From the IMG/VR virus record IMGVR_UViG_3300014060_000012, positions 1 through 27,303 of that record: a stretch of 27,303 nt of DNA. One strand, given 5' to 3'. A model generated the notes under the pieces. That model did no database searches and was not told the origin of the DNA. It saw nothing but the letters and a program-made list of their open reading frames with translations. This document shows positions 3,085 through 21,270 of this stretch, one piece after another. Positions within the stretch are counted from its first letter, which is position 1, and every line of letters starts with the position of its first letter. The translations under genes were made by a program, and so were the position numbers. The stretch comes from a virus.

Positions 3085-4242
3085 TCAATCGACTTTAAAA
3101 ACCGCGTGCGCGCCAGCTGAAGATGGATAAGCAATAAATTCTGCAACACAACCCCAATCAAGACTGAATGATTTATTTACTTCTGATCCGCCAGTGCTCA
3201 GACATTTTGCGTTTAAAGTAATTGCGCTGCCGCCAACGTTTCCAACAAGGAATCGTTCACCATACGGCAAGCCTAAACTACTCACTACCGTTGTGAGATC
3301 GATAGGCGATGAATCAGCCGTATAAATGACAGGAGTCTTTAATCCGCATGACGCGACATTTGCTGGAGCAGATGCCGTTTTGGTTGCGACACCAGACGAA
3401 AAATTTCCGCTATCACCAGCTACAGCACCCACAGCCGTAAGGCTTGCAGCGCTTGCAGCTCCCGTCACTGTTAGCGTTCCACCAACAGTCGCATTTCCGA
3501 CGACCAACAACTGCCACAAAATCCACAAACCAGTGGAGTGATTAAAAGATCCCATATTTGTTGTTAACGCGTCGTCACTAAAAAATAAAAAATCCGAAGA
3601 CACACTCACATCTTTTTGGACATAAAGATGTTTTAGCAAGGTGATTCCGGAAGAAAGTGCTGTTAAGATTCCAGTCACTTCAAGATCTGTAGTGTTTAAT
3701 TTGGTTGCAATTAATGATTTTAAAATTGAAATCGAGTCATCTGAAGAAGATGGGATGCTGTAAGATTTTGCAACAAGTCCATCAGAATCAAATACAACAA
3801 ATAAAAGGTTTCCCCGGTAGATGGGGACACTTGTATCCTCAGCATGTGTGAATGTGCATGACGTGACGGATTCCCCAGCGACTTCCCATTTTGGGCAAAC
3901 AACCATAATAGAGTTCTTGATCGTTTGACCGGTGTAAAGCATTGTGTCGTACCATCCACCAGCGATCACAACGGCGTTTCGCGTCCAGGAAGAAACCTCA
4001 ATCGCAGCAGAAGACATCAAAAATGTTTTCCAAACGATTTCCGATTTCAAAGCCAAAACTTTTGAAAGTTGGTCATCAATTGAAATTGATGGAGTCACGC
4101 CGGCTGCCGTCAAAATTGCAAGCAGCTCTCGCTGGATTGTGTTGAACCAGCTAGCATTTAATTCTGTTGCTTTTTGGCCTGTAGCTGGATTTCCATCGGC
4201 GAATTCGCCGCCAACAGCCGTGCTCGTATTTATTTTGTGCAT
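3085..4242 (-). CDS. Tail fibre protein
   Basis: 385 residues. The N-terminus has the familiar fibre opening in which a G/E-F-x-D-G-NPATGQKATELNASWFN stretch is followed by an IQREL helix. It is seen at the baseplate-proximal end of many Mu/P2-type fibres. The middle (about 240-290) is low-complexity, rich in T, V, G, S and A, as expected for a trimeric fibre shaft (GNATVGGTLTVTGAASAA). The C-terminal ~90 residues form a compact beta-rich tip, probably the receptor-binding part. It lies downstream of the baseplate genes and upstream of lysis. No separate fibre-assembly chaperone gene was seen. An AAGGA site precedes the ATG. Confidence 0.8.
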   Translation of the reverse strand: MHKINTSTAVGGEFADGNPATGQKATELNASWFNTIQRELLAILTAAGVTPSISIDDQLSKVLALKSEIVWKTFLMSSAAIEVSSWTRNAVVIAGGWYDTMLYTGQTIKNSIMVVCPKWEVAGESVTSCTFTHAEDTSVPIYRGNLLFVVFDSDGLVAKSYSIPSSSDDSISILKSLIATKLNTTDLEVTGILTALSSGITLLKHLYVQKDVSVSSDFLFFSDDALTTNMGSFNHSTGLWILWQLLVVGNATVGGTLTVTGAASAASLTAVGAVAGDSGNFSSGVATKTASAPANVASCGLKTPVIYTADSSPIDLTTVVSSLGLPYGERFLVGNVGGSAITLNAKCLSTGGSEVNKSFSLDWGCVAEFIAYPSSAGAHAVFKVD

Positions 4243-4279: not shown

Positions 4280-4807
4280 TCATGATTCCACCGATAAAAA
4301 AACTTTATTTGAATTTGCAGGACAAACAGCAGTAGGATTATTTCCTAGACTCCAATCTGGACAAGCCCTGCAAACGCTTGTACCATTAAGAAACTTAGCT
4401 GAGGCGTAGCGTTCGCCGATGCTGAAAAAGTATGTCACGCCAGCGGTTAAAACGGGAAGTGTGGTGTAGGTCTTTTTATGAGTGTATTTTGTGTATGAGC
4501 TTAAAACGGATCCCGCCGTGACGGTTATTCCAGTGGTGGTTTGCCCAACGGAATTAGCCACTGGTACACCAACGAAATCAGACCCGCTTGCTGTTTTTAC
4601 ATAAATGCCATACGAATAATTGGTGTCTTTCGTACTACTATTCAGAACCATTGAAAATGATTTCACAGACATATTTGTGGATGGAGTAAACTCCACCATA
4701 AATCCCGAATCACTCGCAGGTTTTTCGGTCCACGATTCTTGAGCCACAGGGGTAGAGCCCTGTGTACTTTTTAGCATTATAGATCTTCTGGTGTTTCTTC
4801 TTACCAT
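4280..4807 (-). CDS. Small beta-rich, probably surface or adhesin-like tail protein
   Basis: 175 residues from the ATG at 4807, which lies just past the stop of the GH8 gene; an in-frame ATG at 4777 is equally possible and neither has a strong ribosome site. After a short basic N-terminus, the protein alternates beta-type segments (VEFTPSTNMSVKSFSMVL, YGIYVKTASG, GVTYFFSIG). It ends with a loop holding three cysteines (SVCRACPDWSLGNNPTAVCP). The pattern suggests a jelly-roll or lectin-like domain. Flanked by the glycanase and the tail fibre, so a virion surface role is inferred. I do not recognise the family. Confidence 0.6.
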   Translation of the reverse strand: MVRRNTRRSIMLKSTQGSTPVAQESWTEKPASDSGFMVEFTPSTNMSVKSFSMVLNSSTKDTNYSYGIYVKTASGSDFVGVPVANSVGQTTTGITVTAGSVLSSYTKYTHKKTYTTLPVLTAGVTYFFSIGERYASAKFLNGTSVCRACPDWSLGNNPTAVCPANSNKVFLSVES

Positions 4808-4808
4808 T

Positions 4809-7151
4809 TTAAACCGGCACAACAAGGCCCCAAACACAAACACCATTACGAATAGAGAACTCATAAGTTGAGCCAGCCACAAGCGTTGGGGAACTCGTTA
4901 TCCAGCCTGTAACACCCGTGAAAACGAAATTGGAAACTGTTGCACCAGACGCTATCGAAAGAGAAAATTCAAAACAATCTGATTTTGACGCATCCGAAGG
5001 TAGAGCCAAATTGAAAGCAGTCAAAGCCGTTCCGATATAGTAGACGTCTTTTTCTACAGATAAAGTACTAGTCGAAGAGTCCCATGCGCTAATTCCAGCG
5101 GATGTCTGCATGAACTCCACTAGGTCGCTTTCTTCTTCTGGATTCAATTTAAGATCATTATCGGAATCATTAACCAACAGCCGAACTCTTTTTGCCCCAG
5201 AAGCACTTTCTGGAGGCTCAAAATCAATCACATAACCATGCTTTGCAACTGCTCCCAAGTCCGTCGCGTAACGATTGCATTTATTTGTCATCACAGAAAG
5301 AATAACGCATTTGTAGGCCTGCTTGTAGTAATCAGTGCGCTCATCAGTCAAAGCAAAGCAGGTGTCAATTAATGTCTGGAGTTCTTCCTGTGAAATTGTA
5401 GAACACAACTCAAATGCTGGTAAAATACTCATTAAACCGAGACTATTATTCTCAGTGCCCCAAACCGTAGAAGTAATTCTAAGACTTAGATCGGCTATAG
5501 GAGCAGTTCCTAAGGCACGAACCAATAGCGTGGTATTAGATGCGATAGTTTGAAGATATGATAATAGAGCTGGCTCATAATAAATATTGTATCCTGAAGC
5601 CATATTATCAATTACCCGACACGCCTCATAGCCAAACGCAACAATAGTGCCTGAGCCAATTACTGGTGTGCCATCCTCCGAACACCAGTCACTAGGCAGC
5701 CCATAGCAAGCATGCGCTGTTTGATTAGCCAGCAATAAGGCTAAATTGTCCGTGTATACAGTAGTCCAATCATGAGCCGTGTCGTAAATTTCAAACGTAA
5801 GAAGCGCGGCGGGAATGAAATAGGATGGGTTAAAATAGTCGTGCCAAGCGTCACCTGGGGCAAGCAATACTTTACCACCTGAAGTGGTGTACAAGTCATG
5901 TGCCCAAATTTTGTTTATGACTACTCTTGCAGAAGTCAAATATTTGGGGTCACAGAATTTTTCATAGGCACAAACCAAAGCAAAAGCCATCGCTAGATCA
6001 GCATCTGTTGCACTTCCAGAACCAACGACCGTATGCCCGAAGCCAGAAACTTGCCAGTCCATAAGACCATTAGCGTCTAGATTGTTATTCCAGAAGGCAA
6101 GAAGCCTATCAACTCTTTTTTGATACTTTTCTGAGTCGCCTAAACCCGAAGCAATGACTGCCAATTTGATTCCATACCCCATACCTTCGGAAACAGTAAG
6201 TAGCGGGTCACTATGATTATCGTCAAGCCATTTAATGCGCCCGTATCGAGAGTCTGAACTTTCTACATAATAGGCATCGAACCAGGCGTCAATTTCTTCC
6301 AGGCAGGTATCTTCGTATGTGCTGTCAAGAGTAATGCCTTGAGTCAAAAAGGCGCCAGTACCTTTTAGATATATGCTACTCATTCCAAACGTGATTGTGC
6401 TTTGTTCTGTGTCATATTGGAACGTAACATTTGTTATTCTGTCAGTAGGTATAGTCCTGATTTGCGTTCCTGCGGCCCACGTGGGCTGGGCAAACTGAGA
6501 CCAAAGTACCGTGACTGTGGAATGAGCCCCAGAAGTCGAAGGAAGCGAATAAAACCAATCAGCGCCATCACCACTTTCTTGCGATTGCAAACAAAGTTTT
6601 AATATTTGAGAGCTTGAATAGGTAAGTGTTATTCCTGTGTACGTGGAAATATCTAAAGCGTTTTTAACTGATTGAGCAATTCCATCGTCGTTATAAGTAA
6701 AGTCGAAGCCGACACCAGAATAAGGATATTCACCGGCTGTTGAGTCACCTTGTAATACGCTAGTAACGGATAGACTTTTGTTTACCGTTATATGCTGACT
6801 TATTCCATCATTATCTGGTGTTATTGACGAACCGTATAAATCACAAAAAGCGTACCATCTACCAGGTTGTTTTCCAATTAGACAAGACATCAATTTGTTG
6901 GAAGTAAAATTGGAAAGTAAAGGATCGGTCGATGTTACAGATAGACTTTTTGCAGTATTTAGAGCAGTGCGAAAAGAACCGCTTCTAGCGATAGCACTCA
7001 ACGAAGATGCAAGACTAGTTCTTATTGGGCTGTAAGGTTTCCAACTCTTTTCATTTAAGTTATAGCGATAACGATCACATCCAACACAAGCAAGTTCCCC
7101 GTCTTTTCCGACGTATTTGTTGAGCAGTGTAGTATCATCAAAAGAAATCAT
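4809..7151 (-). CDS. Tail-associated glycanase: CBM11-like carbohydrate-binding domain plus GH8 domain plus fibre-type C-terminus
   Basis: 780 residues. About 90-265 resemble a CBM11/CIA30-like jelly roll (GRWYAFCDLYG, YPYSGVGFDF, DISTYTGITLTY, VTVLWSQFAQPTWA). About 275-630 resemble glycoside hydrolase family 8 (endoglucanase, lichenase, xylanase, chitosanase). The acid motif SEGMGYGIKLAV places the general acid at Glu322; further marks are GLMDWQV (362-368), SATDADLAMAFALV (380-393) and HDYFNPSYFIPAAL (437-450). Where GH8a enzymes read R-x-P-W-R-x-x-x-D-Y, this has RVIDNMASGY (512-521), so the usual base Asp seems absent. It may belong to another GH8 subfamily or be a binding-only protein. 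The last ~80 residues look like a tail-fibre C-terminal domain (LVAGSTYEFSIRNGVCVW). The start overlaps the previous stop (ATGA). No signal peptide, consistent with a virion part. Confidence 0.85.
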   Translation of the reverse strand: MISFDDTTLLNKYVGKDGELACVGCDRYRYNLNEKSWKPYSPIRTSLASSLSAIARSGSFRTALNTAKSLSVTSTDPLLSNFTSNKLMSCLIGKQPGRWYAFCDLYGSSITPDNDGISQHITVNKSLSVTSVLQGDSTAGEYPYSGVGFDFTYNDDGIAQSVKNALDISTYTGITLTYSSSQILKLCLQSQESGDGADWFYSLPSTSGAHSTVTVLWSQFAQPTWAAGTQIRTIPTDRITNVTFQYDTEQSTITFGMSSIYLKGTGAFLTQGITLDSTYEDTCLEEIDAWFDAYYVESSDSRYGRIKWLDDNHSDPLLTVSEGMGYGIKLAVIASGLGDSEKYQKRVDRLLAFWNNNLDANGLMDWQVSGFGHTVVGSGSATDADLAMAFALVCAYEKFCDPKYLTSARVVINKIWAHDLYTTSGGKVLLAPGDAWHDYFNPSYFIPAALLTFEIYDTAHDWTTVYTDNLALLLANQTAHACYGLPSDWCSEDGTPVIGSGTIVAFGYEACRVIDNMASGYNIYYEPALLSYLQTIASNTTLLVRALGTAPIADLSLRITSTVWGTENNSLGLMSILPAFELCSTISQEELQTLIDTCFALTDERTDYYKQAYKCVILSVMTNKCNRYATDLGAVAKHGYVIDFEPPESASGAKRVRLLVNDSDNDLKLNPEEESDLVEFMQTSAGISAWDSSTSTLSVEKDVYYIGTALTAFNLALPSDASKSDCFEFSLSIASGATVSNFVFTGVTGWITSSPTLVAGSTYEFSIRNGVCVWGLVVPV

Positions 7152-8296
7152 TTTGTCACCCTCACGAAGATATTGTTTCCTGTTTCGCCCTCAAAAGTAA
7201 AAGACGCAGGGGCTTCTGTGAGCACACCTAAATTATTGACTATCCCCGAAGTATAAGGGAGAAAATTCATATTGCTCCCAGCAACACCGCGAACTGCACA
7301 GCCATTTGAGTCCGTGAAAACGCAGGCATAATATTTTTCATCCATACTGAAAACATTACTCACGACATGACTCAGAACACCAGTAATATCAGAGCTTGCG
7401 GTCGGCATCGTAATGATGGGAGACGACATTTTCAACGTATTTAAACGCGTTGTTTCGTTGTGAGAAAAGAGTCCAAAAATTAATGATCCGCCACTTACCA
7501 CTTGTGGCATCGAAATTTTCATTATCGATGTTGCAAGCATTTCCATTGCAGACAAAGGATTAATTCGAGTTCCTTGCCCAGCCCATTGAGTTGCCGAGCC
7601 AGCGTTAAGCGATACAGAAGCATTCGCAGACCCAATTAGCATTGTCTCCATCGTTAAAATACCGGAGCTTGCAGCTCCAGAATTATCATTGGTGTTGTCC
7701 CAAAACTCTTGAGTAATATAAGATTCTTCACCAACAGTTCCGTTTGTTTCGAGCGTCAATCCAGATTCCAGACGTTCGTATAAAACGGTGCCGGTATCGC
7801 AAATTATTTTTCCATCAAATGCGTTTCTTAACCATTTTACTCTGATAGAAGACGTGCCGTTTTGTTGGCTATTTAATTTCCACGACCATCCAGCTTCTGA
7901 ATGAGCGCCTCCATAGAAATCACCATATACCGTCAAAGAGCACCCAGCAGGCGCTACAATAGTGCAATTAGTGCCCAGCAAATGCCGATGCATATAAATG
8001 ATTTTTTCACATCCCAAAGTTACGCTCATTTCGTCTAAAAGTGTCGCATCAGATCCGGTCCACAAAATGACACTTTGTGTGTTGCTCGTTAGCGCAGCAG
8101 ATAATTCTACCTGAGTTTTGCAAAAAACATCGACCATTTTAGAAATGATATAATCCACGAGTGTCTTCCCGAGGATATTTCCGGTGCCGGCCGCAGCGGA
8201 ATCTCCGAGAATGTAGGCATCAAGGAATTGCGCAATGGAGAACGTAATGGGGGCATCTTTGATGCGTTTTTTTATGAGCTCTTCAGTATCAGCCAT
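7148..8296 (-). CDS. Putative tail fibre / baseplate appendage protein
   Basis: 382 residues from the ATG at 8296, which has a GGAGG site 9 bases upstream; the longer frame from 8356 lacks this. The start overlaps the gp48-like stop. The N-terminus is helical (MADTEELIKKRIKDAP) and may dock on the baseplate. Residues about 60-150 read like a short parallel beta structure (TIVAPAGCSLTVYGDFYGGA), and the rest is beta-rich with many S, T, G and N residues. Its place right after the gp48-like protein is where Mu-type phages carry the fibre gene. No enzymatic motif was seen and no specific family recognised. Confidence 0.65.
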   Translation of the reverse strand: MADTEELIKKRIKDAPITFSIAQFLDAYILGDSAAAGTGNILGKTLVDYIISKMVDVFCKTQVELSAALTSNTQSVILWTGSDATLLDEMSVTLGCEKIIYMHRHLLGTNCTIVAPAGCSLTVYGDFYGGAHSEAGWSWKLNSQQNGTSSIRVKWLRNAFDGKIICDTGTVLYERLESGLTLETNGTVGEESYITQEFWDNTNDNSGAASSGILTMETMLIGSANASVSLNAGSATQWAGQGTRINPLSAMEMLATSIMKISMPQVVSGGSLIFGLFSHNETTRLNTLKMSSPIITMPTASSDITGVLSHVVSNVFSMDEKYYACVFTDSNGCAVRGVAGSNMNFLPYTSGIVNNLGVLTEAPASFTFEGETGNNIFVRVTK

Positions 8297-9224
8297 AGAT
8301 ATACACCTCCCCGGAATCACCGGCGACAACAGAACCGTCCGAAGACGCAACCACATTGTAAACGTTATTGACCAGATTGTAAATGAAAATCATCATTGTG
8401 TGCGACGGCTTAATCGCCAGCAGAGCGCTTTCCAGCGGCTCGTTCCACCAATAACGTAGATAGTCGTCGCATTCGGAATTGCAATTAAAAACAGTCATTT
8501 CGCTGGCGGGAACCGTAAGCATCACAGACCAGTACATCAATGCGTCCGTTCCGAGAGCCGCCACCCATGCAGGAAATGAGTCAGGATCTTTCCAGTACTC
8601 ATATACCTTTGATTCGACACCAAAAAGAGTGGCTATTGATTCCAGATATGGGATAGTCGCTCCACCTTTTCGACATTCTACCCTGTAAATTTCAGAGCGT
8701 CTATCCGCGGCAGAGGTGAAGGTCAGGCCATTCCTAGGAAGGCCTAGTTCTTGTTCCCACAAATCAAACGACGAGGTGTGAGAAGCGGAACCTTCACGAA
8801 ATAATGAAAGGAATAGTTCGTAGATGTAAAGAAAAACGACAGCAAAACCAGAAAAGAGTTTAGCCCAATTTCCCAAGATGCCCTTAAACCACCCGAAACC
8901 GCGAGGCATAAGCCCTAGGAGCATATCGCGAAATGTCTCCTTATTTTTTTCCTGTGGGATGTAAATAGGTATTTCCGTGAGATCCACAACAAATAGTTTT
9001 AGCACAGCGGAAGATTCGCCACCACAATTAATAGTGAACGTATAATCGCCGATATCCGCAGGAGCCATAAATACAAGTTCTGTGTCCGAGTAGTCCAAAG
9101 GGATAATCGTTTTTCCCCCGATAGAGACAGAACAATCCGGACAGAAACCAGCCCCGTTCACAGTTACAGAGCCGCCAGGCGGAACTCTTCTTGAAGAAAC
9201 GGATAGGACAGTCGGCGCGGCCAT
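8289..9224 (-). CDS. Mu gp48-like (DUF2313) baseplate protein with N-terminal IPT/TIG domain
   Basis: 311 residues. Residues about 1-82 look like an immunoglobulin-fold IPT/TIG domain (PTVLSVSSRRVPPGGSVTVNGAGF, with the family's G-x-G-F turn). After a linker, the rest matches the Mu gp48/YmfQ pattern. The LMPRGFGWF motif corresponds to the usual L-P-x-G-x-x-W, and DLWEQELGLPRN corresponds to D-x-W-E-x-x-L-G-L-P. A Cys-containing stretch SECDDYLRYWWNEPLE follows. In Mu-type tails this protein joins the baseplate to the fibres. The added Ig-like domain is not part of the Mu protein and could bind carbohydrate or a fibre. Confidence 0.85.
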   Translation of the reverse strand: MAAPTVLSVSSRRVPPGGSVTVNGAGFCPDCSVSIGGKTIIPLDYSDTELVFMAPADIGDYTFTINCGGESSAVLKLFVVDLTEIPIYIPQEKNKETFRDMLLGLMPRGFGWFKGILGNWAKLFSGFAVVFLYIYELFLSLFREGSASHTSSFDLWEQELGLPRNGLTFTSAADRRSEIYRVECRKGGATIPYLESIATLFGVESKVYEYWKDPDSFPAWVAALGTDALMYWSVMLTVPASEMTVFNCNSECDDYLRYWWNEPLESALLAIKPSHTMMIFIYNLVNNVYNVVASSDGSVVAGDSGEVYIYG

Positions 9225-9227
9225 GAT

Positions 9228-10400
9228 TTACCCACTGATAAAGGATATGCCGTTGTCAGCGACATAAGCGATTTGTCCCACCGGGGTGTCCGTGGAATTC
9301 GGATCCGAGGGGACGGCGAGTTGCAAAGTAATCTGGTCCACAGAGGAGCTACCTTGTATCAAACTGGTGATCACGACATTTGACGCCGTCGATGAGGCGC
9401 GCGCCGCGATAACAATATCGTCTTTGACGATAGTGGATTTTGGACCGAAGGACCGAAGGTACTGACGAATAGCGGCGTCCACAGATGATTTTACCGACTC
9501 AGTGAAAGGCAGAATCTGCACGACCATAGATATTCCGGATGGCGATACAGAAAATACGCGCACATCCGCAGTCACCACGCGGCGCTGGGCGGAGGTCATA
9601 TATTTTTTGACGGTCGAGATCTCACTGGAATTCAGAACAGGAGGATCCGTATTATAATTTGCCAGAGCCACGGATACAGAGTTTACATTCGGGTTATTTG
9701 CGAATACGAACGCGTCCGTAACGCTTGAGAAGCGGGTAGCCCAGCCTTTATAATCTGAGTCACAACCACCCATGGGTGGATTCTGTCGACGGTACAGGAG
9801 TCGTGTGCGGTAATCCTCCGCAGTCTCACCCCAGTATTGGGTGACTCCATCGATCTCGACGTCACAAACAATGCCTCCAGAGAGCCCCTCCGAATCGACG
9901 GTGACAGCAATTGCAGTATCAATGCCTGTGGGAGCATCATCGCGAAACACAAGTTCCGCATCCGCATCCAAATTGGAATCGGCACCGTATTCCGAAGCAA
10001 TGACAGGGACGGAATTGGTGCCGGAAATAAGGGCAATTGTGGATACAGTTTGATATTCTTTGTTTGTCGTCTCATCGATAAATGCAGTGCCCTGAGAGAG
10101 AGAAACTGCTTGTGTCGCCGTGACGATCGCATTGCCAAGCGCATAACCAGGAGCCTTGTGTGGCAAGCCATAATCAGTTCCAAAACCATCCAGCGCGTCA
10201 ATGTCACAGGTGGTTATAAAACGATTTTTCCAAATGTGCGCGGCAAATAGGCAGAACAGATACATCGATCCACCCAACACTTTTGCCAAAACTTTAAGAA
10301 CCGTTTTTCGGAGTGTTGTTCCTGCACCATAAAATTCTACACTGAGGCCATTCTCAGCGCGTCGTATTAAATCTTTGAGCGTGGGAGTTTCAAATGCCAT
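9228..10400 (-). CDS. Baseplate wedge protein, Mu gp47 / baseplate J-like
   Basis: 390 residues from the ATG at 10400, which overlaps the preceding stop as TAATG; the longer frame uses a TTG at 10421 and is unlikely. The N-terminus MAFETPTLKDLIRRAENGL is the typical gp47/J opening. The middle carries the DIDALDGFGTDYGLPHKAPGYA region and GETAEDYRTRLLYRRQNPPMGG, both hallmarks of this family. It builds the wedge ring that surrounds the hub in contractile tails. The order gp45, gp46, gp47, gp48 is that of Mu. Confidence 0.93.
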   Translation of the reverse strand: MAFETPTLKDLIRRAENGLSVEFYGAGTTLRKTVLKVLAKVLGGSMYLFCLFAAHIWKNRFITTCDIDALDGFGTDYGLPHKAPGYALGNAIVTATQAVSLSQGTAFIDETTNKEYQTVSTIALISGTNSVPVIASEYGADSNLDADAELVFRDDAPTGIDTAIAVTVDSEGLSGGIVCDVEIDGVTQYWGETAEDYRTRLLYRRQNPPMGGCDSDYKGWATRFSSVTDAFVFANNPNVNSVSVALANYNTDPPVLNSSEISTVKKYMTSAQRRVVTADVRVFSVSPSGISMVVQILPFTESVKSSVDAAIRQYLRSFGPKSTIVKDDIVIAARASSTASNVVITSLIQGSSSVDQITLQLAVPSDPNSTDTPVGQIAYVADNGISFISG

Positions 10401-10849
10401 TATGCGAGCGTTGCCTCCCAATTAAATTCATAGGTGTATGTTTCTGAACTTCCGGAGGGTTTTGTGATCGCAGTTGTCATGGTAATCATTTCCTCGCCAG
10501 AGATGCTAGCAGAACAAGACGTCGATTTTGCAATCCCGTCATTGACCATCCATTTTAATGCGTCGTTGACAAAGCCTTCAATATCGCGACACGTTGCAGC
10601 TGTCAGCTTACCGTGAAAGGCCTTGTGGAGATAACCGCCGAGCTTGATGAGATTATCTTCAACGGCATCGCCCCACCATCCACCAATGTCTGGTTCCGTG
10701 TTTGCCGTTTCGCCCGTCGCCGCACGCGCATAAGTTCCGATGGATATAATAACTGCTTTTTCAAGAGTGTCCGTCAATAGTAAATCTGTGCCGTCGAAGT
10801 CGAGATCGAAGCATCCATCAGACAATCGTTTTAGCGCTAAATCACTCAC
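10400..10849 (-). CDS. Baseplate wedge protein, Mu gp46-like (gp25/W family)
   Basis: 149 residues with a GTG start at 10849. Family marks are FDLDFDGTDLLLTDTLEKAV and the conserved GGWWGDAVED motif of Mu gp46. It would form the inner wedge clamp together with gp47. It is the first gene after the perfect 27-bp palindrome at 10875-10901, so its expression, and that of the genes downstream, may be controlled separately from the upstream tail genes. The ribosome site is weak. Confidence 0.92.
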   Translation of the reverse strand: MSDLALKRLSDGCFDLDFDGTDLLLTDTLEKAVIISIGTYARAATGETANTEPDIGGWWGDAVEDNLIKLGGYLHKAFHGKLTAATCRDIEGFVNDALKWMVNDGIAKSTSCSASISGEEMITMTTAITKPSGSSETYTYEFNWEATLA

Positions 10850-20202: not shown

Positions 20203-21270
20203 TTAGGCTCCGATTACCGGGATGTTGTTTTTAATGAACAGACAGTGATCACGCATGGTGTCAATGTGTGTGGCGATAGTGTCCGTGCCGCCGAAAGAAA
20301 GTTTTTCTGCACTCACATCGCCAGTGTAGGTGACGATTGCAAATTTTGTTTCTTCGGCACCAGTTTTCACACTCTCCAAAAGCATAGCGACAGGTTTTTC
20401 TGTGCCGTCGGTTTTCGTGGAATCCACGATAAAAAATTCACCCTTGGCAAAATCAACGCCAGCCACCACCACAGTTTTGACGCCAATGGTGAGAGTCACA
20501 TCAGACTTTGACATTGCAACAGAATAGTCATTGGGCCATGTGCCAACAGTATTGGCTTCCAGCTCCAATTTATCAGCGGTGGTATTGGCAGTCACTTCGA
20601 AAGGACACGCAGTGTCTGCATTGGCTTGTGCCGCGAGTGCCGCGAGGAGGCTATCCACAGTGCTGGCCGATGTGACTTCCGTCTCATAGCTCAGGTTAAT
20701 GGTTGAGGCATCAGAGATAGCAAGAGTCACACTTCCCGCAGGATCAGCAGCAGTCCCAGCCGTCACAACAGTTTTTGCGCCGATGGTGAGCACCACCGTT
20801 GTCGCAGTCAAAGTGATGGTGTAGTCATTGGCCTCTGTTCCAATAGCATTTGCTTCGAGTTCCAGTTTGTCATCCGTGGTATTTGCCAAAGCAGATAACG
20901 GACAAGCCGTATCCGCGTTTACAAGCGCCGTGATAGCCGTGAGGATACTGTCAATGGTGCTGGCCGAAGTTGTAGTCACCGGATAGCTCAAATCAATTTC
21001 AGCACCGTCAGCGATGGCAAGCGTCACGGTGCCATTACCAGGAGTGAGTGCCGAAAGCGCAAAAGAAAATTCGGCTTGCGTGCCGGCCGATGGAGCGGTA
21101 AAAGCCGACAGACCAAAAGACAACTTTTCTTTTACGCCTGCTGTTGCTGTTTTCTTCCCGAGGATTGCACCTTCGGGAAGATTTTGTCCGGCACCGATTT
21201 CAACGGAATCACGCGCCTGCGGAAAATCACCCGCAAAAAGATTTTGATACGACATAGTACGAACAGTCAT
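20203..21270 (-). CDS. Head decoration protein (lambda gpD-like) enlarged by two tandem beta domains
   Basis: 355 residues, about three times lambda gpD (110). The N-terminus (DSVEIGAGQNLPEGAILGKKT) and C-terminus (KPVAMLLESVKTGAEETKFAIVTYTGDV, then DHCLFIKNNIPVIGA) are the two halves of the HDPD family. Between them lie two tandem copies of a ~95-residue domain (residues about 79-172 and 179-271), each with SAST-V/I-DS, NADTACP and TT-x-DKLELEAN. These resemble the outer domain of the sheath in this same phage. The protein would stud and stabilise the capsid, with the extra domains pointing outward (inference). GGAGG precedes the ATG at 21270. Confidence 0.88.
   Translation of the reverse strand: MTVRTMSYQNLFAGDFPQARDSVEIGAGQNLPEGAILGKKTATAGVKEKLSFGLSAFTAPSAGTQAEFSFALSALTPGNGTVTLAIADGAEIDLSYPVTTTSASTIDSILTAITALVNADTACPLSALANTTDDKLELEANAIGTEANDYTITLTATTVVLTIGAKTVVTAGTAADPAGSVTLAISDASTINLSYETEVTSASTVDSLLAALAAQANADTACPFEVTANTTADKLELEANTVGTWPNDYSVAMSKSDVTLTIGVKTVVVAGVDFAKGEFFIVDSTKTDGTEKPVAMLLESVKTGAEETKFAIVTYTGDVSAEKLSFGGTDTIATHIDTMRDHCLFIKNNIPVIGA
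20458..20736 (-). repeat. Tandem domain copy B inside the decoration gene
   Basis: Codes for residues about 179-271: GSVTLAISDASTINLSYETE, TSASTVDSLLAAL, NADTACPFEVTANTTADKL, LTIGVKTVVVAG. Second copy of the domain at 20755-21036, joined to the C-terminal half of the HDPD fold. Confidence 0.85.
20755..21036 (-). repeat. Tandem domain copy A inside the decoration gene
   Basis: Codes for residues about 79-172: GTVTLAIADGAEIDLSYPVT, TSASTIDSILTAI, NADTACPLSALANTTDDKL, LTIGAKTVVTAG. Pairs with copy B at 20458-20736 with a period of about 99 codons. The copies agree at many positions in protein, less in DNA, so the duplication is not very recent. Confidence 0.85.

Follow-up and report, generated by a model that had tools for sequence, protein, structure and literature searches.

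Phage cellulases are already known. In Erwinia phage S6, the GH5 protein gp095 digests carboxymethylcellulose, and cellulose is the first receptor and is needed for infection (PMC9544554). A check of the S6 domains identified GH48 and Calx-beta in gp094, and GH5 and an Ig-like domain in gp095. Rumen viral GH5 and GH9 enzymes are active (PMC10465536), and GH8 appears in a listing of viral metabolic genes from soil (PMC9948696); we found no description of GH8 in phage tail proteins in the open-licence literature.

The gene described here lies in the window, by which we mean the whole stretch of DNA analysed (IMG/VR record IMGVR_UViG_3300014060_000012, 27,303 bases). Its tail-encoded combination of GH8 with a CBM11-like domain is a variant on the S6 enzymes (GH5/GH48). 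Both phages encode cellulase-family proteins in their structural region, but S6 is a Schitoviridae podophage with neither GH8 nor CBM11, and no homology was detected between its genes and the window gene. As with classical tailspike depolymerases, the product would be a polysaccharide-active protein encoded in a variable tail slot; tailspikes are beta-helix trimers, whereas the window protein is predicted to be a GH8 alpha/alpha barrel. Our preferred reading, to which we assign a probability of roughly 0.68, is that a temperate Mu-tailed phage of the Fibrobacterota encodes a virion beta-glucanase adhesin in its tail.

The tail operon and its host

The clear phage genes of the window, judged from the open reading frame list and profile searches, are all on the minus strand and comprise terminase, portal, protease, capsid, sheath, tube, tape measure, Mu-like baseplate and gp48; downstream of gp48 follow the GH8 gene, a fibre-like protein, a lysozyme and a partial integrase. 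A sequence-only reading had placed a 780-residue GH8 gene between baseplate and tail-fibre genes, and this was borne out: Mu-like contractile tail genes surround it, with Baseplate_J and gp48 on one side and a tail-fibre-like protein on the other. The features are as follows.

9228..10421, minus strand: Baseplate_J protein
8289..9224, minus strand: Mu Gp48-like baseplate protein, end of the conserved genes, with the variable fibre block following
7148..8356, minus strand: 402-aa open reading frame directly upstream of the GH8 gene, no family match
4809..7151, minus strand: CBM11-like + GH8 tail gene, 780 aa, ATG at 7151, stop at 4809-4811
7026..7151, minus strand: N-terminal region, aa 1-42, presumed attachment part; precedes the BLASTP match to the viral copy L154, which begins at aa 43
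6360..6857, minus strand: CBM11-like domain, a putative beta-sandwich, aa ~99-264 (matched by profile at 102-251)
5238..6323, minus strand: GH8 catalytic domain, aa ~277-638
6186..6188, minus strand: Glu322, catalytic acid of the SEG motif, invariant in 98/98 homologues
6003..6005, minus strand: Asp383, active-site Asp, invariant in 98/98 homologues
5625..5627, minus strand: Glu509, at the catalytic-base position (Asp278 of CtCelA)
4812..5147, minus strand: C-terminal region, aa 669-780; collagen repeats instead in L154
4280..4807, minus strand: next gene, starting ~2 nt past the GH8 stop (listed ORF 4280-4882)
3085..4242, minus strand: tail-fibre-like protein (PHROG 1858, E=1.5e-12); N-terminus recurs in related Fibrobacterales prophages

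The gene is tightly packed: its start codon overlaps the stop codon of its upstream neighbour (ATGA), and ~2 nt separate its own stop from the start of the next gene. No hydrophobic signal peptide was found in residues 1-45. The C-terminus had been called fibre-type from the sequence, a description that was not confirmed: residues ~669-780 gave no match to a PHROG or an INPHARED phage and no convincing one in IMG/VR, where a 19-residue match to the C-terminus alone was judged spurious. The N-terminus weakly resembles the targets of diversity-generating retroelements in relatives, and we do not claim kinship. Elsewhere in the window, the gp48-like protein (8289-9224) has an N-terminal IPT/TIG domain above the Pfam cut-off, and a 355-aa protein beside the capsid gene (20203-21270) shows an apparent internal duplication of ~80-90 aa, its relatives being mostly shorter.

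A genome scan returned a 100% match in MNYL01000077.1, a contig of Fibrobacteres bacterium CG2_30_45_31 (Fibrobacterota), which is the reverse complement of the window across 26.3 kb with 8 differences. Beyond this point the contig has a 7-N gap followed by host-type genes, the first encoding a GH5 cellulase, where the window carries the integrase. The difference is as expected of a prophage end versus a free phage form, the phage-host junction being a scaffold link only because of the intervening gap. The GH5 cellulase gene and a lipoprotein-like gene directly past the prophage end (C256:30318-34288 of the host metagenome-assembled genome, MAG) mark a possible attachment site. Together with this GH5 gene, the host MAG contains four GH9 matches and no GH8 besides that of the phage; by gene content the host lineage appears cellulolytic. 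About ten further genomes from the order contain related prophages, with sheath proteins 47-60% identical; we call the order Fibrobacterales because named Fibrobacter sequences fall among its GH8s in our tree.

In seven Fibrobacterales prophages the gene order from tube to gp48 is the same as in the window, and the block past gp48 varies among them, with no GH8 or CBM found there. In one of the seven, as well as in IMG/VR relatives, this block contains a diversity-generating retroelement, comprising a reverse transcriptase, an Avd-like protein and a template-variable repeat pair whose mismatches fall at template adenines (18/18 in L148, 19/23 in L147). Such retroelements are typical of receptor-binding genes. 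Because gene order is conserved up to gp48, the following block varies and relatives carry a retroelement there, the GH8 gene occupies the host-recognition slot. The retroelements follow the fibre gene (L148:2588-5903, L147:3308-5416 and L179 at G096:C28), and one is in a Fibrobacterales genome.

The GH8 and CBM11-like domains

GH8 membership, which had been proposed from motifs, was confirmed by profile search and by structure prediction. The protein matched Pfam PF01270 at E=3.4e-27 (95.8 bits against a curated cut-off of 24) over residues 311-513, and the motifs SEGMGYG (aa 321-327), SATDADLA (aa 380-387) and NPSYF (aa 441-445) are all present. By sequence it matched 12 PDB chains, all GH8-type glucanases, the best being Clostridium thermocellum CelA (CtCelA or Cel8A, 1cem; E=2.9e-17). 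The Pfam match ends at residue 513; the family profile, the structural model and a second viral copy extend GH8 to about residue 638. Alignment-based AlphaFold2 gave a pLDDT of ~85-95 across most of residues 280-480, and the best 44 PDB matches of the model in Foldseek were all GH8 enzymes, xylanases and chitosanases included (1cem: E=4.3e-15, TM 0.77 by target). The input alignment, A4, contained GH8 relatives and is partly tuned: a combined two-domain alignment misplaced the CBM rows, so we used a subset of rows, chosen by trial and error, that gave the correct placement. A single-sequence prediction was of no use (pLDDT 35), and a BFVD structural search with the model yielded no GH8 match. 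BcsZ, the GH8 of cellulose synthase operons, shares the domain; identity as BcsZ was rejected (51 bits against an NCBIfam equivalog cut-off of 299). No cellulose synthase scored above cut-off in the genomes of the host's order.

Aligned with 98 relatives, Glu322, Asp383, Trp366, Tyr444 and Arg512 are invariant; by alignment, Asp383 falls at Asp152 of CtCelA. The window protein shares with CelA the GH8 fold, the SEG acid and the active-site Asp, Tyr, Trp and Arg; CelA differs in being secreted, in having no tail context and in its base, Asp278 as opposed to Glu509. At this column the 98 homologues have D in 50, N in 36, E in 11 and G in 1. The PWR motif after Arg512 is also lost in the window protein. 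Because of these two changes, rate or specificity may differ from those of CelA, or activity may be low.

Residues ~102-251 are homologous to a domain family represented in 87 of the 113 genomes from the order to which the host MAG belongs, often in open reading frames near GH8 genes when coordinates were compared. The earlier proposal of a CBM11-like domain, described there as a jelly-roll segment, was supported. A 28-row profile of the family had the C. thermocellum CBM11 (CtCBM11; 1v0a/2lro) as its sole significant PDB match (E=1.6e-5), which covers about half the domain, mainly its second half. Pfam CBM_11 had no match in the 780-aa protein, although in one of the scans the control matched nowhere, and a CIA30 match was sub-threshold (E=0.008). 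As Pfam CBM_11 does not reach it, we name the domain CBM11-like only. AlphaFold2 predicted strands at residues 127-264 (pLDDT ~45-88).

The domain assignments bear on the substrate. The enzyme might act on another beta-linked polymer, such as xylan, chitosan or a specific host exopolysaccharide, with the CBM fold taking a matching ligand; GH8 includes xylanases and chitosanases, and both were among the structural matches. We consider this unlikely, as the endoglucanase CtCelA is the best match in both sequence and structure, and the only significant PDB match of the CBM profile is a beta-glucan binder.

Related copies, selection and descent

Two further viral copies of the gene were found, L011 and L154. 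The L011 copy is ~88-89% identical across residues 246-780, and the gene after it shares its start with the window's next gene and then differs; a collagen-like gene follows. The contig (JAQVPE010000179.1) is a phage sequence binned into an Izemoplasmatales MAG, likely misbinned. The window and L011 genes are 20% apart in DNA, with a dN/dS of 0.036 in GH8 and 0.117 at residues 641-780, and their active sites are identical; the GH8 domain is under strong purifying selection. The L154 copy comes from a viral contig of 375 kb and shows 40% identity across 655 residues (aa 43-668, E=1e-146, BLASTP). It has a CBM-like domain, Asp at the base position and a collagen-repeat C-terminus, and collagen/fibre genes lie just upstream of it. 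The CBM-GH8 core is reused with a different C-terminus in another virus.

These comparisons also bear on whether the GH8 domain is catalytically weak or dead and itself serves for binding only, holding the virion on beta-glucan without cutting it. Glu509 replaces the catalytic base and the flanking motif has diverged, and substitutions of the base residue eliminate or severely reduce activity in the GH8 enzymes that have been studied. The other conserved active-site residues are kept, nearly all of the 11 homologues with Glu at this position are cellular, L154, the closest independent viral relative, has Asp, and strong purifying selection acts on the whole domain, all of which makes a weak or dead enzyme improbable.

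The closest cellular relatives of both window domains are the secreted GH8 cellulases and CBM11-like domains of Fibrobacterota, which differ in carrying a signal peptide and, in many cases, a sorting domain at the C-terminus. In two of these loci (L099 and L116) GH8 is followed by CBM11-like domains, the reverse of the window order. The GH8s of the window, L011 and L154 form one clade (100/100), which joins the Fibrobacterota GH8s with support of 100/99, the Fibrobacterota rows having been partly recruited by similarity to the phage. Capture from the host had been suggested, and at the phylum level this is supported: the phage GH8 lies beside those of Fibrobacterota, the CBM family is abundant there, and the phage resides in a Fibrobacteres MAG. 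The phage clade is sister to the cellular clade and not nested in it, so the tree leaves direction unproven; host-to-phage transfer is the likely direction. As the host MAG has no other GH8, the donor would be a different member of this lineage or an ancestor further back.

Proposed function and GH8 in other viruses

We propose that the CBM11-like domain would bind beta-glucan chains and that the GH8 domain would cut them, with Glu acting as the base. The particle would be held on, and eat through, the beta-1,4 or mixed-linkage glucan that surrounds the host, after which other fibres may engage the final receptor, a two-step adsorption suggested by analogy with phage S6. Presence in the virion, Glu-base catalysis and the substrate are all inferred. 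A virion adhesin-depolymerase is favoured over a secreted metabolic enzyme because of the S6 precedent and because the protein has no signal peptide, unlike the host GH8s examined, several of which also carry a secretion sorting domain. Alternatively, this could be a metabolic or lysogenic-conversion gene, a prophage cellulase that aids fibre digestion by the host, a role suggested for GH5 and GH9 genes of rumen viruses. Such a role would suit a lineage that appears cellulolytic, the reported viral cellulase genes active in E. coli (PMC10465536) and the soil listing of GH8 (PMC9948696), but it is very unlikely for a protein with neither signal peptide nor sorting domain, locked into a late tail operon and with related viral copies that have collagen ends or sit in baseplate fusions.

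An extension of the virion adhesin is more tentative, and we hold it as possible but doubtful: CBM11-GH8 may be a mobile virion cassette that lets phages infecting cellulolytic bacteria treat the insoluble substrate itself as their first receptor. Such a particle would bind and crawl along cellulose or mixed-linkage glucan and so find fibre-attached cells, instead of degrading a host capsule. Phages of Fibrobacterota are, to our knowledge, hardly known, and the question bears on the way phages get to cells that are fixed to insoluble fibre. If true, a virion bearing a cellulase and a binding domain of the type found in its hosts would allow direct tests of a host search guided by the substrate.

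GH8 was also sought in other viruses. Scans of IMG/VR with the single protein, a small GH8 alignment or the Baseplate_J protein gave no relatives; these came from a broader alignment, A6, only. Neither the window protein nor a Fibrobacterota GH8 had a tblastn match in INPHARED. CtCelA-type and BcsZ-type queries identified a stand-alone GH8 among metabolic genes in Microcystis phage MaAM05, a faecal record without annotation, and records that are short or bacterial and resemble host DNA. The MaAM05 region (MW495066.1, 169408-188154) has ordinary metabolic genes around GH8 and may be bacterial DNA.

On the tree, the viral GH8s require four changes, at least three of them forced by well-supported branches. 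The other viral groups include fusions of a baseplate-hub attachment domain with GH8 (L155, L157) and the long tail proteins of L156 and L162, which have tape-measure and baseplate genes as neighbours. Such repeated appearance of GH8 across unrelated tail architectures, some containing three glycoside-hydrolase domains, suggests a broader, under-annotated class of virion cellulases. The hub fusions (L155:5769-9095, L157:5658-8990; also L158 and L160) combine PF09931 with a C-terminal GH8, and the C-terminal part of L155 matches PHROG 1696, named 'major tail protein'. Two giant tail proteins (L156:7158-12845, L162:5508-9956) carry GH8, GH6 and GH16 right after Baseplate_J, and one of the two also has a Tail_P2_I domain.
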